A DNA stretch of 25,798 bases from Amanita rubescens. Its lineage: Eukaryota; Basidiomycota; Agaricomycetes; Agaricales; Amanitaceae. The notes beneath the pieces were generated by a model that was not told the origin of the DNA, searched no databases, and saw nothing but the letters and a program-made list of their open reading frames with translations. This document shows positions 5,303 through 18,280 of the stretch, in pieces (positions within the stretch are counted from its first letter, which is position 1; every line of letters begins with the position of its first letter). Position numbers and translations under genes: made by a program. The stretch lies in the NCBI GenBank assembly GCA_015039365.1, contig WION01000655.1:1-25798 (forward strand). The letters run 5' to 3'.

Positions 5303-8300
5303 ATGGCAGCTACAACTGGTGCACCTTCTTTGAGTAGGCTGATTTATGGACTCAGCATTTTTTATTAATCCTTGACTGACATAGTATCAGATGCAGATGA
5401 GACACATGTTCAAATACTCAAGGAACGCTATCTATGCCCACATTTTCGCATCCTTGTCATTGGGAGGGCTAATGCAGGCAAGACAACCATCCTTGAGAAG
5501 GTTTGTGGTGTAGCAAAGGGGACAAAGTCCATCGTATATGACAAGGATGGTAAGTTGGTCTGAATTTTGTGCATCCTTTGACTGTTGAGTTTCTTGCAGG
5601 TAATATGCTTGAACAGTCTGTGATTCATTTGATGCCATCACTTGAGGTGAGTCGGTTAATGATGTATGAATGTACCCATGCACATGCAAAGACAACAGAG
5701 AGGCCTGCATGATATTGAGCATCAAATTACATACCCTGGAAGTAACTTTATCTTCCATGACTCTCAGGGTTTTGAAGCTGGTTCAACTGAGGAATTGGAG
5801 ATTGCTTGGAAGTTCATTGAAAGGAAATCTGTAGAAACTGAGCTGAAGAATCAGCTGCATGCAATTTGGTATCTTGCTTTATCCCTTTACAATACTGTCT
5901 AACCTGATTTCCTGTAGGTACTGTATACCCATGGATAGCCCTCGTCCCATTCTATCTGCAGAGCTTGAATTCTTCAATAAAGGGACAGGCAAAGGTAAGT
6001 CTAATGAATTTGTGTACCATCTTGTTGGGTTTGGAGAGATCATTGTCACCTCCTTTCCAATGGCTAAATTGCCACAAAATCAACTAAGTAATCAACAGTG
6101 TACTGATTAGTAAATATTTCCCTTACAGTTCCTTTGGTGGTTATATTCACCAAATTTGATGGTCAAATAAACATTGAATTTGCCAATTTGACTGATGCAA
6201 AGAATGAAGATAAGTGGGAGAGAGCCAGGGAAATTGCTCAAATCACTTTTCAGAAAGTTTATCTTCCAAAAGTGTTGGATGCCAAATGTCCTCCCAAGGG
6301 ATATGTGCAACTGGAAGGTGAGAATGATGAGGATTTCTTCCCAAAAAATGGGAGTAATGTTGTTTCATAGACATGGATTTACCAGAGAAGAATTGTGCTG
6401 AATTAACTCAGCAAACTGCTGATGCAATAGATGATGACAGCATACATCAGCTGTTTGTTTCAACACAGATGAATAATCTTGACCTTTGTGTCAAATCTGC
6501 ACTTCAGTGAGGATCACATTCAAAATGTCACTTACTGACATTGACATTGTTCAGACATGTTCTGAAACATAAACATTGGACATGGGATGATGTCATTCTC
6601 ATAGTTTTTGGAAAATTTCCACATTTCTGGGTATGCATTTTTGTCAAACTGCACATTGGCATAGGAAAATTTAAATGGCAATAGGTGGACAGAGAGGTAG
6701 GTGGCCTTCATATGGAATGATAAATGCTTGCAAAAGTTCATCAGGAGGTAAGTAACACTCCAATACCTTCACATGAAAACAAGATTAGTCATGCTTCAGA
6801 TGGCCAATGAAAAACTGAGTGAAGCACAGGTCAGTTGTCACCATATTCTTGGTGGCAGGATCTGATAATATTGATATCAGTGGGTAAGTGACATTGCACT
6901 AGCATAGATCTGATATATTATCTGATGACAACAGTTTGTGAGTAATGGTTCCCTTTGTGATCAGCAGTCTTGTCCCATAATCTACAGGAAGTGAGTGACA
7001 TGACTCAATTTTGATTTTTGGTAAATGATCCTATGGTGCATCATATGACCAATAGCAAGTGAGTTAATCTATCATTGTAAGCAGACTTCTCAATCCAGTC
7101 TCTCATGGACAGGGAGTGAGTAATACAACACTGCTTCACACTGCATCTGACCTGCTTAAAGAAAGTAAGCAACATTGATGTTTGTTCAGCTTATCAGACA
7201 TAACTCAATGAAGAACAGAAAGTTGGTGACATTCTATTATCTGAAAGAGAGTCTCAACAAATTTCATTGGATTAATAACAGGAAGTAAGTGAGATTTCCT
7301 TTCTGTCTGCTTAAAACATTACATCTTGTCTTAAAACAACAGACAGTAAATATTTCTCCTATTCAAAGCCTCTTGATAAGCTATTTCAACACAAACAGGA
7401 TGTATGTGATCCTTGAGATGTGAATTAATCATATGAAATACCATGGCAAAAGAGAGTTGGTGGCATTTTTTTCTTTTTTCCCAACTCATGGTGCTAATTC
7501 TATTCTAAAAGGAAGTGAGTGATGCTGGCCACTCTGCTACAGGACAATTTGGACACATTGTTTTGTTCTACAGATTGTGGGTGATATTGCAAGTTTTGTA
7601 AAAAGCAGTGAAATCACATCTTTTCCTATGAACATAGAAGGTTAGCAGCATGTCATGCTGGTTTAGTGGTTCAAAAGATGACCTTATCAAAATTTTGCCT
7701 ATGGCCAATAGTATGTGAGTAACATTGCAAATATTTATGAAAAGCTGCTTATGTATTCTTTTCCTGTGACTGACAGGATGTGAGCAACATTGAAGATTTT
7801 TGCAGAAGGCAGTCCAAGTCTCATCACATCTTTTCCTATGACCAACAGGGAGTGAGTGCCAACATTGCACATTTTGTGAAAGGCAGTCTCATCACATCTT
7901 TTCCTATGACCAACAGCGAGTGAGTGACATTGCACATTTTGTGAAAGGCAGTCTCATCACATCTTTTCCTATGACCAACAGCTTGTGAGTGACATTGCAC
8001 ATTTTGTGAAAGGCAGTCTCATCACATCTTTTCCTATGACCAACAGCAAGTGAGTGACATTGCACATTTTGTGAAAGGCAGTCTCATCACATCTTTTCCT
8101 ATGACCAACAGCGAGTGAGTGACATTGCACATTTTGTGAAAGGCAGTCTCATCACATCTTTTCCTATGACCAACAGCGAGTGAGTGACATTGCACATTTT
8201 GTGAAAGGCAGTCTCATCACATCTTTTCCTATGACCAACAGGGAGTGAGTGACATTGCACATTTTGTGAAAGGCAGTCTCATCACATCTTTTCCTATGAC

Positions 8301-9992
8301 CAACAGGAAGTGAGTGACATTGCACATTTTGTGAAAGGCAGTCTCATCACATCTTTTCCTATGACCAACAGCAAGTGAGTGACATTGCACATTTTGTGAA
8401 AGGCAGTCTCATCACATCTTTTCCTATGACCAACAGCAAGTGAGTGACATTGCACATTTTGTGAAAGGCAGTCTCATCACATCTTTTCCTATGACCAACA
8501 GGGAGTGAGTGACATTGCACATTTTGTGAAAGGTAGTCTCATCACATCTTTTCCTATGACCAACAGCGAGTGAGTGACATTGCACATTTTGTGAAAGGCA
8601 GTCTCATCACATCTTTTCCTATGACCAACAGGGAGTGAGTGACATTGCACATTTTGTGAAAGGCAGTCTCATCACATCTTTTCCTATGACCAACAGCGAG
8701 TGAGTGACATTGCACATTTTGTGAAAGGCAGTCTCATCACATCTTTTCCTATGACCAACAGGGAGTGAGTGACATTGCACATTTTGTGAAAGGCAGTCTC
8801 ATCACATCTTTTCCTATGACCAACAGGGAGTGAGTGACATTGCACATTTTGTGAAAGGCAGTCTCATCACATCTTTTCCTATGACCAACAGGGAGTGAGT
8901 GACATTGCACATTTTGTGAAAGGCAGTCTCATCACATCTTTTCCTATGACCAACAGGGAGTGAGTGACATTGCACATTTTGTGAAAGGCAGTCTCATCAC
9001 ATCTTTTCCTATGACCAACAGCTTGTGAGTGACATTGCACATTTTGTGAAAGGCAGTCTCATCACATCTTTTCCTATGACCAACAGCGAGTGAGTGACAT
9101 TGCACATTTTGTGAAAGGCAGTCTCATCACATCTTTTCCTATGACCAACAGGAAGTGAGTGACATTGCACATTTTGTGAAAGGCAGTCTCATCACATCTT
9201 TTCCTATGACCAACAGGAAGTGAGTGACATTGCACATTTTGTGAAAGGCAGTCTCATCACATCTTTTCCTATGACCAACAGCGAGTGAGTGACATTGCAC
9301 ATTTTGTGAAAGGCAGTCTCATCACATCTTTTCCTATGACCAACAGCGAGTGAGTGACATTGCACATTTTGTGAAAGGCAGTCTCATCACATCTTTTCCT
9401 ATGACCAACAGCGAGTGAGTGACATTGCACATTTTGTGAAAGGCAGTCTCATCACATCTTTTCCTATGACCAACAGTTCGTGAGTGACATTGCACATTTT
9501 GTGAAGGCAGTCTCATCACATCTTTTCCTATGACTAACAGCTTGTGAGTGACATTGCACATTTTGTGAAAGGCAATCTCATCACATCTTTTCCTAGGATA
9601 AACTTTTCTCCATGTTCAATGAAGAAAAGGAAAGGACCTTTGCAGTCAAGGTACATATTTTTGTTCTTTTTTGAGGCATAGTACATACATAACTTATGCC
9701 ATTGCAAAAAGCCTATTAATTGCCAGGTCTTAGTTTGTAAATCATTTCTTTTCATTTGCTGTATTTATGCTTAAACCTTCAAGCAATTATCATCATTGCC
9801 AAGCTATCCTTTTGGATCAATAAACCATTTGTGCCATCAGTCACAGAAGCCTTGGACCAATACATCCAAAAAAGCTATGTTCAGAAGCTCAAGACTGACA
9901 TTACTCCTGACATTATTCACTCTGATCATCAAGATTTGGTCACATTACTCTATAGGCAGGTGACACACATTGATGGTGGGTACTTTGTCTAG
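5303..9992 (+). CDS. P-loop GTPase with 56 predicted introns, 44 of its exons only 3 nt long
   Basis: The predicted protein is about 445 residues. Exons: 5303-5333, 5385-5549, 5600-5646, 5699-5868, 5918-5994, 6129-6317, 6371-6506, 6555-6630, 6685-6696, 6745-6747, 6800-6829, then 43 triplets from 6881 to 9543, then 9597-9650, 9727-9736 and 9784-9992. All phases join without a stop. GTPase motifs are clear: G1 GRANAGKTT, G3 DSQG, G4 TKFD and a G5-like VSTQ. HAIWYCIPMDSPRPI is typical of a fungal GTPase group of unknown cellular role. The C-terminal domain has WTWDDVILIVFGKFPHFW before the array and a hydrophobic segment ending SIIIIAKLSFW after it. The array lies between these two parts and would add about 44 single residues. 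The gene is AT-rich compared with both flanks. A processed form that skips the whole array would also stay in frame. GTPase identity is near certain; the micro-exons need cDNA. Confidence 0.85.
6697..7851 (+). repeat. Diverged 5' part of the intron-triplet array
   Basis: Twenty introns begin in this stretch and their lengths vary from 46 to 71 nt. Except for a 30-nt exon at 6800-6829, each pair is separated by 3 nt: GAG 6745, TGG 6881, TTT 6935, GAA 6988, CAA 7056, GGA 7113, then AAA 7162, AAA 7219, GAA 7282, ACA 7343, GAT 7399, AGA 7453, then GAA 7512, ATT 7574, AAG 7638, TAT 7712, GAT 7777 and GGA 7849. None is a stop. Several units keep traces of the core intron (GTRAGTGACATTGCAC at 6884, ATGACCAATAG before 7056), so they look like older copies. 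Weak sites exist: GTTGGT donors at 7222 and 7456, GTTAGC at 7641, AAAG acceptors before 7162, 7453 and 7512. Boundaries there are less sure. Confidence 0.7.
7852..9596 (+). repeat. Homogeneous 65-bp array: 62-nt intron plus one variable codon
   Basis: Each unit starts GTGAGTGACATTGCAC, contains CTCATCACATC and a possible branch-point ATGAC, and ends CCAACAG. Twenty-five units begin at 7920 and every 65 bp to 9480. A 65-nt variant starts at 7852 and a shortened last intron at 9544 ends CCTAG at 9596. Substitutions in the 24 units from 7920 to 9479: one (C to T at 8534). The triplets vary: CGA 7917, CTT 7982, CAA 8047, CGA 8112, CGA 8177, GGA 8242, then GAA 8307, CAA 8372, CAA 8437, GGA 8502, CGA 8567, GGA 8632, then CGA 8697, GGA 8762, GGA 8827, GGA 8892, GGA 8957, CTT 9022, then CGA 9087, GAA 9152, GAA 9217, CGA 9282, CGA 9347, CGA 9412, TTC 9477 and CTT 9541. 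Read-through in any plus frame meets stops, so it is not a plain protein repeat. Confidence 0.9.
9727..9736 (+). other. 10-nt micro-exon of the GTPase gene
   Basis: Joining exon 9597-9650 directly to 9784-9992 gives the wrong frame. A 10-nt exon bounded by TGCCAG on the left and GTAAAT on the right restores it. The junction then reads AVKVLVSIIIIAKLSFW, a smooth continuation into the C-terminal domain. The flanking introns are 76 and 47 nt. The frame repair is the evidence; it is not confirmed by transcripts. Confidence 0.65.
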
Positions 9993-12424: not shown

Positions 12425-12508
12425 GGTTCTGCTCAGCGATACCAACATTGTATCCCAATGACGACATTTAAGTATTCAGGTGAGTATCTGCTCAAATATA
12501 CCAACGTT

Positions 12509-13110
12509 GACCGCTAATGACGACGGTCAAATAGGCGGACTATCTGCTCACATCTACCAACATTGACCACCAATGACGACGGTCAAATAGGCGGACTATC
12601 TGCTCACGTCTACCAACATTGACCGCCAATGACGATGGTCAAATAGGCGGACTATCTGCTCGAATCTACCGATGTTGACCGCCAATGACGACGGTCAAAT
12701 AGGCGGACTATCTGCTCACATCTACCAACATTGACCGCCAATGACAACAGTCCAATAAGCTGAGTATCTGCTCACATCTACCGACGTTTACCGCCAATGA
12801 CAACGGTCAAATAGGCGGACTATCTGCTCACATCTACGACGTTGACCGCCAATGACGATGGTCAAATAGGCGGACTATCTGCTCGAATCTACCGATGTTG
12901 ACCGCCAATGACGACGGTCAAATAGGCGGACTATCTGCTCACATCTACCAACATTGACCGCCAATGACAACAGTCCAATAAGCTGAGTATCTGCTCACAT
13001 CTACCGACGTTGACCGCCAATGACGACGGTCAAATAGGCGGACTATCTGCTCACATCTACGACGTTGACCGCCAATGACGATGGTCAAATAGGCGGACTA
13101 TCTGCTCATG
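12509..13110. repeat. 56-bp minisatellite built on the 30-bp palindrome
   Basis: About 11 tandem units of roughly 56 bp. Each has a copy of the 30-bp palindrome (ACCGCC, AATGACGACGGTCAAATA, GGCGGA) plus a linker CTATCTGCTCACATCTACCAACATTG with variations. Units differ at a few sites, and a block of four variants (with GATGGTC, GACGGTC, ACAGTCC...AAGCTGA, ACGGTC) recurs with a period near 223 bp, which shows higher-order duplication. Confidence 0.8.
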
Positions 13111-17311: not shown

Positions 17312-18280
17312 GACATCGATGCCATCCCATATCACCACATATCTTTCGGAGTCAAGCCACAATGACCATCCGCCAATTTTGACTGTGGAATACGCGGAAC
17401 AGTCATATTACTATCGTATGTCCATCCACTACAATGATCGTACGCCAATGTTGACTGTGTAATACGCGGAACAGTCATATTACTATCGTATGTCCATCCA
17501 CTACAATGATCGTACGCCAATGTTGACTGTGCAATACGCGGAACGGTCACATACCACCGATTCACCATCTTATGATCACCTACCACAATGACCATCCGCC
17601 AATGTTGACTGTGCAATAAGCGGAACGGTCGTATTACTATCGTATGTCCATCCACTACAATGATCGTACGCCAATGTTGACTGTGCAATAGGCGGAATGG
17701 TCACATACCACCGATTCACTATCATATGATCACCTACCACAATGACCATCCGCCAATGTTGACTGTGCAATACGCGGAACGGTCGTATTACTATCGTATG
17801 TCCACCAACTACAATGATTGTACGCCAATGTTGACTATGCAATAGGCGGAATGTCACATAACAAATTCACGATTGTATGATCACCTACCACAACGACCAT
17901 CCGCCAATGTTGACTGTGCAATACGCGGAACGATCCCGTATCACCGATTCACTATTGTACGATCACCCACCACAATGACCATCCGCCAATATTAACAGTG
18001 CAATACGTGGAACGGTCATATCACTATTTTGTGTCATCCACCATAACAACCATCCGCTGATATTGACAGTACAATGCGCGGAACAGTACTACGTTCACAT
18101 GCTATGACTATCCACCTACATCGCTATTTAAATCCGCGGAGCAGGCTTATCATTCACCACCACAACTATCTGCTTATGTCAACATCGTAATCCGCGGAGC
18201 AGTCTTATCACCCACCACCTATACCATCTACTGGCGGTCAAGACTTTGCATCCGCCAATAACGACATTACAATAGGCGGA
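17266..18280. repeat. Second array of the 30-bp palindrome
   Basis: Copies of exactly 30 bp lie at 17266-17295, 17369-17398, 17441-17470, 17513-17542, 17595-17624, 17667-17696, 17749-17778, 17821-17850, 17900-17929, 17982-18011, 18053-18082 and 18251-18280. Left arm TCCGCC or TACGCC, right arm CGCGGA or GGCGGA, core usually AATGTTGACTGTGCAATA. From 17369 to 18011 they form a tandem repeat with spacing of 72 or 82 bp. Bare TCCGCGGA sites near 18132 and 18191 may be shortened copies. The core differs from the first array, but length and arms are the same. Confidence 0.85.

Follow-up and report, generated by a model that had tools for sequence, protein, structure and literature searches.

Consecutive one-codon exons and their putative codon-by-codon diversification in an expanded GTPase gene family of Amanita rubescens

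We analysed a 25,798-nucleotide (nt) contig of the mushroom Amanita rubescens (WION01000655.1 of assembly GCA_015039365.1; hereafter the window, or C604 where loci are compared), in which a GTPase gene on the forward strand, at positions 5303-9992, contains a long array of exons that are nearly all a single codon in length. Parsed under the GT-AG rule, the gene has 57 exons, and its spliced reading frame is open for about 445 residues. Exons 1-8 (5303-5333, 5385-5549, 5600-5646, 5699-5868, 5918-5994, 6129-6317, 6371-6506, and 6555-6630) encode a GTPase domain, identified through Pfam and through NCBI and JGI homologs, with the P-loop GRANAGKTT and the C-terminal end FGKFPHFW. A short exon encoding VDRE (6685-6696; the relative P0004 has VGRD here) leads directly into the array (6697-9596), which a base-by-base parse resolves into 46 introns enclosing 45 internal exons, 44 of which consist of a single codon. 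The first of these is a lone GAG (E, 6745-6747) with an equivalent residue in P0004 (VGRD-E-MANKQLSEAQ), and it is followed by the sole longer internal exon, of 30 nt (6800-6829, MANEKLSEAQ; MANKQLSEAQ in P0004 and VTNEQLSETK in P0002), and by 15 one-codon exons, W F E Q G K K E T D R E I K Y, that we refer to as the old block (6881-7714), where the introns are diverged and 46-71 nt long. Two further exons of a single codon, GAT (D, 7777-7779) and GGA (G, 7849-7851), correspond to the YDG of P0002 and P0004 and precede the young block (7852-9543), which comprises 26 hypervariable one-codon exons (R L Q R R G E Q Q G R G R G G G G L R E E R R R F L) and introns that are mostly 62 nt long (25 of 27) and mostly identical to their consensus (23 of 27). 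The array closes with a 53-nt intron of the young-intron family (9544-9596, 3′ end TTCCTAG). Beyond it lie the exon DKLFSMFNEEKERTFAVK (DKLFSMF, 9597-9650), which has counterparts at C79, C667, C769, C340, C170, and C82, and two last exons (9727-9736 and 9784-9992, stop codon at 9990-9992) encoding the hydrophobic IIIIAKLSFWI and a C-terminal part shared with the C-termini of relatives. For the first of these two exons we preferred 9727-9736 (GTCTTAGTTT), which obeys the GT rule and is in frame, over a 7-nt alternative at 9727 that violates the GT rule; the resulting junction, read by eye, yields VLVS-IIIIAKLSFW, the same as in relatives. The predicted joined peptide would run ...VDREEMANEKLSEAQWFEQGKKETDREIKYDG, then the variable codons, then DKLFSMF.

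A preliminary description of this DNA had reported a gene interrupted at nearly every codon, and the structural part of that claim was borne out base by base: all 46 introns between the VDRE and DKLFSMF exons are GT...AG and 46-71 nt long, 44 of the 45 internal exons are 3 nt with the 30-nt exon as the exception, all are in phase 0, and the array is bounded by good exons in a gene that stays open when spliced. What the description had missed is that the gene belongs to a family and that its young codons are hypervariable while resting on homogenized introns. It had also held that the regularity is no trivial period, and this too stands, given that the older introns differ in length and are not uniformly divisible by three. 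Successive 3-nt exons in the window form a chain of up to 43 triplets, from TGG (6881-6883) to CTT (9541-9543), compared to a longest chain of 4 on the opposite strand and of at most 3 in 100 dinucleotide shuffles of the window. With donor and acceptor scores held fixed, control exon sizes of 1, 2, 4, 5, 6, 8, and 9 nt gave chains of at most 2, and a chain of 26 at exon size 7 is an echo of GTGAGTGA. Five loci analysed in the same way gave 3-nt-exon chains of 30-57 versus at most 3 in 100 shuffles per locus. Our strict array parsers, including those used for the old block, for arrays of the C340 type, and for the further loci below, allow only 3-nt exons, and some also penalize stops; the less constrained counts are those of the chain-length control and of a parse with free exon length, in which 26 of 26 young exons of the window were again 3 nt. 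The U2-type hallmark is present in all array introns (46/46 GT-AG). Shuffles, the exon-size control, and the occurrence of introns of every length modulo 3 together rule out chance or a trivial period.

The array is not peculiar to the window. All loci that we read were found via array or GTPase similarity and belong to one family, and arrays were present in 25 of 26 parsed loci, at the same site in an expanded GTPase family, with stretches of codon-by-codon interruption spanning about 20 to 86 codons. A search of the 75.7-Mb A. rubescens assembly with the initial 235 nt of the window old block matched at least 40 loci (the best 40 of 113 candidates). Among eight paralogs picked by GTPase similarity, seven had arrays of 21 to 62 triplets; the eighth, C76 (L043), is a GTPase copy that is broken off, its homology stopping at the equivalent of window position 5946 with no gene match thereafter. 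Further loci, C46, C776, C124 (at 38 kb), C386, and C1, have 49, 49, 25, 25, and 41 triplets, respectively, and the longest runs of consecutive one-codon exons were found in C79 (86), C667 (85), and C340 (82), where they are followed by exons encoding HELFSMF... and ...IIIAKLSFWI... or ...IIVIAKLSFWI.... Some loci are near-identical duplicates (C79/C667/C239; C769/C228a/C254; C114/C311), and the number of independent arrays is therefore lower than 25. The contig C228 carries two array genes in opposite orientation, at 1-9.9 kb (L037) and 48.5-58.4 kb (L038), almost 50 kb apart and with unrelated codons (z 0.1).

The young introns of the window form a 65-bp tandem array, and a DNA search with two intron copies returned at least 568 matches, those listed being on 12 contigs. 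Thirteen arrays, including that of the window, were fetched from this search, and 512 young intron copies were parsed at these 13 loci with free exon length. Eight of the 13 arrays contained only 3-nt exons (26/26, 35/35, 69/69, 28/28, 45/45, 35/35, 22/22, and 70/70). In C228b the free-length parse gave 27 exons of 3 nt, one of 0 nt, and two 58-nt stretches; in the strict parse all exons are 3 nt and the 58-nt stretches are read as missed 52-nt introns. The 62-nt introns have the consensus GTGAGT...CAACAG, and in 476 introns of exactly this length G1, T2, A4, and G5 are invariant while A61 and G62 deviate in three each. When these 476 introns (excluding the other 36) were compared to 471 three-nt exons, the ratio of exon to intron diversity was 17-75 in all 13 arrays; in the young block of the window, exon diversity was 0.462 and intron diversity 0.0090. 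Mean intron identity between arrays was 0.982-0.991 (36 pairs of nine arrays, for which C749 and C599 were dropped and C13 and C254 are without a parsed old block). The young codon repertoire consists of 25 triplet types, with CGA, GGA, GAA, and CAA accounting for 169 of 288, and no stop, xGT, or xAG triplet was present among the 471 three-nt exons; the lack of xGT and xAG would fit avoidance of new splice sites. Triplets flanking an intron mostly differ, and no target-site duplication is visible.

The old block shows the opposite pattern, in which codons are conserved next to diverged introns. All 15 one-codon exons of this block, little changed from WFEQGKKETDREIKY, were found in 18 of 21 parsed loci; the block was not parsed in C76, which is broken, or under the strict parser in C254 and C13, although the latter two do hold old-block DNA (93% and 92%). 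Between C604 and C79, 45 of 45 codon sites in the old block are equal, compared to 392 of 439 interior intron sites with an additional 43 gap columns, and between C29 and C340 the corresponding figures are 39 of 45 codon sites and 311 of 415 intron sites with 106 gap columns. The old-block parser takes 3-nt exons only, a bias that does not produce conserved codons. Whole arrays with diverged introns are also present: in C340, C170, and C46 mean intron identity is 0.74-0.76 and introns have 15-21 distinct lengths, and in C340 the chain of 3-nt exons persists while introns range from 46 to 94 nt.

In-frame stops are absent from both kinds of array. Across 208 triplets of six young arrays (C604, C769, C257, C228b, C82, and C79), frame 0 contained no stop, compared to 11.9 expected from positional base composition (P = 7e-6), and the arrays with diverged introns likewise contained none (C340 0/82, C170 0/57, and C46 0/49, with 7.0, 2.4, and 4.0 expected).

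Proteins of relatives contain the same codons joined together. P0002 (JGI, 386 amino acids on a 1446-nt contig) has WFEKGKKESDREIEYDG in one frame, within ...WVDRAVTNEQLSETKWFEKGKKESDREIEYDG..., and P0004 (JGI, 311 amino acids on a 1903-nt contig) has VGRDEMANKQLSEAQWFEHGKKDTDKQIVYDG in one frame, within ...WVGRDEMANKQLSEAQWFEHGKKDTDKQIVYDG...; the match of P0004 to the window includes even the isolated GAG exon. The P0002 contig, which derives from another genome (its best listed exons are ~89% identical), has no space for the introns of the gene. Past the old block it continues for 43 residues, beginning with DG, before it reads VRFHFRGSPNPTSC; this stretch is similar to a read-through of the last array intron of C79 (VRFHFSSPTLTSC), suggesting that P0002 represents a transcript from which all array introns except the last were removed. 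When joined, the 49 single codons of C776 (FERAESIARDERQFYDEDG...KERNKRQ) align to P0037 (FESADDAAGKEREYYDDG...KERDHRR), a protein of 478 amino acids on a 1486-nt JGI contig that falls in a deeper subfamily together with C776, and the joined codons of C124 also align to P0037; in both cases none of 1000 shuffles scored as well. Overall, 16 of 48 pairs of joined codons and relatives' peptides were reached by no more than 10 of 1000 shuffles, nine of them by none. P0023 and P0024 are identical at 298 of 317 positions before the site and at 87 of 92 after it, whereas the variable site itself is 52 residues long in one and 35 in the other, with 15 identities in 33 positions. A protein search with a region matched only P0004 and P0001, and a search with profile A1 gave five rows, among which P0101 and P0124 have a variable region at the array site.

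Because the old codons are conserved, in-frame stops are absent, and the codons are joined in relatives, the triplets are most likely real exons that are spliced codon by codon, and the proposal in the preliminary description that the array consists of real coding exons gains support from each of these three lines. The same evidence bears on a minisatellite, that is, a repeat inside one large intron that is removed whole from 6697 to 9596 with non-coding triplets. Such a repeat would account for the clean 65-bp periodicity of the young block and for the NCBI models of array genes P0001 (C82), P0007 (C599), P0008 (C228), and P0028 (C257), which all end upstream of the array, but not for conserved old-block codons beside diverged introns, the absence of in-frame stops, the continuous frames of relatives, or a C340 array whose exons remain 3 nt while its introns vary from 46 to 94 nt. 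Codon conservation together with the contigs of relatives led us to rule out this explanation as highly improbable.

Of 23 NCBI gene models of this family read by eye (from Amanita, Jaapia, Mycena, and others), 20 end before FPHFW or no more than ~35 residues after it, at the position of the array, P0065, P0112, and P0119 being the exceptions, and the JGI contigs P0023, P0024, and P0037 extend well beyond this site; arrays may thus be hidden in other mushrooms too. P0100 and P0103, two JGI contigs whose GTPase part resembles Gymnopus P0110 by eye, are identical at 252 of 301 positions up to WFPH and then enter strongly different segments with many H, E, R, L, and N residues (a score attained by 11 of 500 shuffles); they appear to show this hypervariable site in a further genus.

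Comparisons between closely related loci indicate how the codons change. The flanks of C257 and C228b are 99.0% identical over 2,142 nt while their codon orders are unrelated (z 0.2), and pairing C769 or C228a with C257 or C228b gives four further comparisons, with flanks of 98.4-98.5% identity and z of -1.0 to 1.0. Duplicates with flanks of 99.9-100% identity keep their codon order (z 12-20). Apart from exactly one codon-plus-intron unit and one intron length, C79 and C667 differ at 1 of 4,283 sites in introns and at 0 of 210 in codons. Between C769 and C228a, ATC GGA is replaced by CGA CGA and 2 of 2,232 intron sites differ; between C228a and C254, GAA CTT GCA is replaced by CGA CTA CTA, a run that is also present in C13, and the two loci further differ at 3 of 2,108 intron sites, in the length of two introns, and by a single 4-nt exon. 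C79 additionally contains a duplication of 18 units in which the intron variants are in register; its halves, aligned ungapped, differ at 3 of 1,119 intron sites versus 11 of 54 codon sites, with three codons changed in all three bases. In an alternative register, GAT CGA TAT CGA against TAT CGA CGA TTT amounts to two units lost and two gained, and two of the three fully changed codons, as well as the replacement of ATC GGA by CGA CGA, can also be read as a two-unit loss and gain; under either register, whole codon-plus-intron units change. The 10 ungapped codon replacements (three bases in four, two bases in two, and one base in four) are near a random draw from the codon pool, though they are few, come from three comparisons, depend on register, and exclude the 4-nt exon and introns of unequal length. 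Given this resemblance to a random draw, we rejected point mutation as the sole source of codon change. Growth by duplication of single units was rejected as well, since adjacent identical codons were not significantly enriched in any of seven arrays (P 0.058-0.35); repeated three-codon words were enriched in two of the seven (C228b, P 0.008; C82, P 0.033).

Near-identical introns beside different codons would be explained directly by an introner-like invasion, in which copies of one intron were inserted at each codon boundary of a once-continuous exon; near-identical introns at 13 loci are likewise in keeping with this, and introners are known from fungi (PMC4457414). The young codons are nevertheless unlike ordinary coding sequence in their restricted repertoire, C79 and C667 differ by codon and intron together as expected of unit duplication or loss, and a continuous copy of the peptide was not found among the genome matches listed, an empty result that is weak. 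We know of no insertion mechanism that yields 3-nt spacing, and we regard an invasion of this kind as decidedly unlikely.

We instead consider it very probable that the array introns are removed one by one, that the triplets are translated into one uninterrupted peptide, and that exchange of units diversifies the loop it forms. In such a mechanism, the spliceosome would remove 46 successive GT-AG introns and the triplets would join into one peptide, while unequal exchange and gene conversion between near-identical introns, which we infer to be the simplest mechanism, would add, remove, and swap single-codon cassettes. With 3-nt exons almost throughout and phase-0 introns only, both the frame and the splice signals would survive these exchanges. 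The same exchange would homogenize the introns, and selection would presumably maintain codon diversity, with a mutation process aimed at the triplets as an alternative. Phase-0 introns and exons that are nearly all 3 nt long also mean that any skip would stay in frame, which raises the possibility of combinatorial alternative splicing, with any donor pairing with any later acceptor to give many in-frame peptides per gene. For the micro-exon genes of schistosomes, alternative splicing is among the origins of protein variation that have been discussed (PMC10526429). No isoforms were seen here, however, the old block is intact in both P0002 and P0004, and codon hypervariability between loci would not be explained by this process alone, so that we find it an unlikely account of these genes.

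Several observations weigh against splicing of individual codons and their diversification by exchange. First, frame 1 of the young triplets is also free of stops (0/202, with 13/202 in the remaining frame), and the absence of stops could stem from a stop-free founder codon set, making it no proof by itself. Second, array splicing in A. rubescens rests on genomic DNA and on the contigs of relatives; the status of the P0002 and P0004 contigs as transcripts is deduced from their missing introns, and P0004, which may be only partly spliced, has ~970 nt outside its frame and lacks its N-terminus. The 25 codons of C386, moreover, matched none of the eight relatives' peptides tried (at least 64 of 1000 shuffles reach the score). 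Third, C604 and C82, with flanks of 98.0% identity, retain a weak remnant of shared codon order (z 2.0), and the lack of significant enrichment of adjacent identical codons noted above counts here too. Exchange alone would homogenize the codons as well as the introns, so that the mechanism also needs either selection or an elevated codon mutation rate; nor does it account for the way in which a spliceosome would cope with 3-nt exons flanked by 62-nt introns. Lastly, exons of other than 3 nt occur in four of the 13 arrays (C749 17/45, C13 5/47, C254 1/35, and C599 1/11), which may be decayed or contain sequence errors; in C749 (L032) and C13 (L041), several exons are of 0-4 nt, and these are probably decaying copies. 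Together with the broken copy at C76, such exons would be compatible with an assembly artefact or a pseudogene, but 25 of the 26 loci that we parsed have arrays, the codons of which are in most cases particular to the locus, the C-terminal exons are open after at least 80 one-codon exons, and the same type of peptide appears in independent data from relatives; we find an artefact or pseudogene scarcely credible.

The N-terminus of the protein leads into the GTPase domain, for which the PF01926 match scores 21.9 bits, equal to the curated cut-off of 21.9; the Pfam scan gave GTPase matches and one weak domain of unknown function, with no NLR or WD match. Any structural resemblance to IRG and dynamin-like GTPases is tentative: template modelling (TM) scores were below 0.5 in the 50 Foldseek matches listed, and Arf-like, EngB, and septin GTPases come within about 2 Z units behind. 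BDLP is among the Foldseek matches listed and outside the 50 matches of the other structure listing, and a sequence search of solved structures gave weak matches to Arf, septin, and EngA/Der (best E 0.0021). In P0024 the variable part (about 319-353) has a predicted local distance difference test score (pLDDT) below 50 at 319-344, with confident parts on either side, and the variable peptide is predicted to be a disordered loop of variable length between the GTPase domain and C-terminal helices. By analogy with other expanded fungal families for nonself recognition, the diversity of this loop probably serves recognition. The more complete proposal of codon-cassette diversification, in which an immune-like GTPase family would carry each variable residue on its own homogenized intron copy and rewrite a recognition peptide codon by codon in frame, with up to 86 codons spliced, is plausible but tentative.

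Elsewhere in the window, ~27 copies of TTTAGGG at the contig end (25607-25798) are telomere-like and place the array gene ~16 kb from an apparent chromosome end. Two satellite-like tandem arrays, at 12485-13108 (units of 56 and 223 bp) and 17357-18087 (units of 72 to 226 bp), have the motifs CCGCCAATG or CGCCAATG.

If our interpretation is correct, these genes set a new serial limit of exon size, with an exon equal to a codon up to 86 times in a row, and they raise the question of how U1 and U2 define splice sites that are repeatedly 3 nt apart. Introns would acquire a new role as recombination spacers around single codons, and hypervariable peptides would have a new route of origin. Gene catalogs would also truncate these A. 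rubescens genes, and perhaps those of mushroom relatives, just before their variable part.

A search of titles and abstract openings, in which most subscription journals were not covered, found no published description of consecutive one-codon exons. Three known systems, namely schistosome micro-exon genes, Podospora het-d/het-e, and introners, each share one trait with the A. rubescens arrays. Schistosome micro-exon genes have exons of 3-81 bp and introns of up to 5 kbp (PMC10526429); like the genes described here, they are variable genes with tandem very short exons in multiples of three, but theirs combine exons of mixed size with long introns, whereas here up to 86 successive exons are one codon each. 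The array introns of A. rubescens, at 46-71 nt in the window and ~62 nt and near-identical in the young arrays, depart from the long introns that characterize the schistosome genes. A single 3-bp micro-exon is spliced in Drosophila homothorax (PMC7392893), which is alike in exon size but has one such exon where A. rubescens has them consecutively. Introners and introner-like elements are near-identical dispersed introns (PMC9860276, PMC4457414), and the young introns resemble them in being near-identical and in many copies (at least 568 matches, 512 parsed); the copies read here differ in being tandem, one codon apart, and at one site of one gene family. In het-d/het-e, WD-repeats are exchanged within and between loci, and four residues per repeat are hypervariable and under diversifying selection (PMC1805685). 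The likeness lies in repeat bodies homogenized within and between loci with few hypervariable sites; in het-d/het-e, however, the repeat encodes a WD domain in an NLR, whereas in A. rubescens the homogenized unit is an intron, the variable site is a single codon, and the protein is a GTPase.

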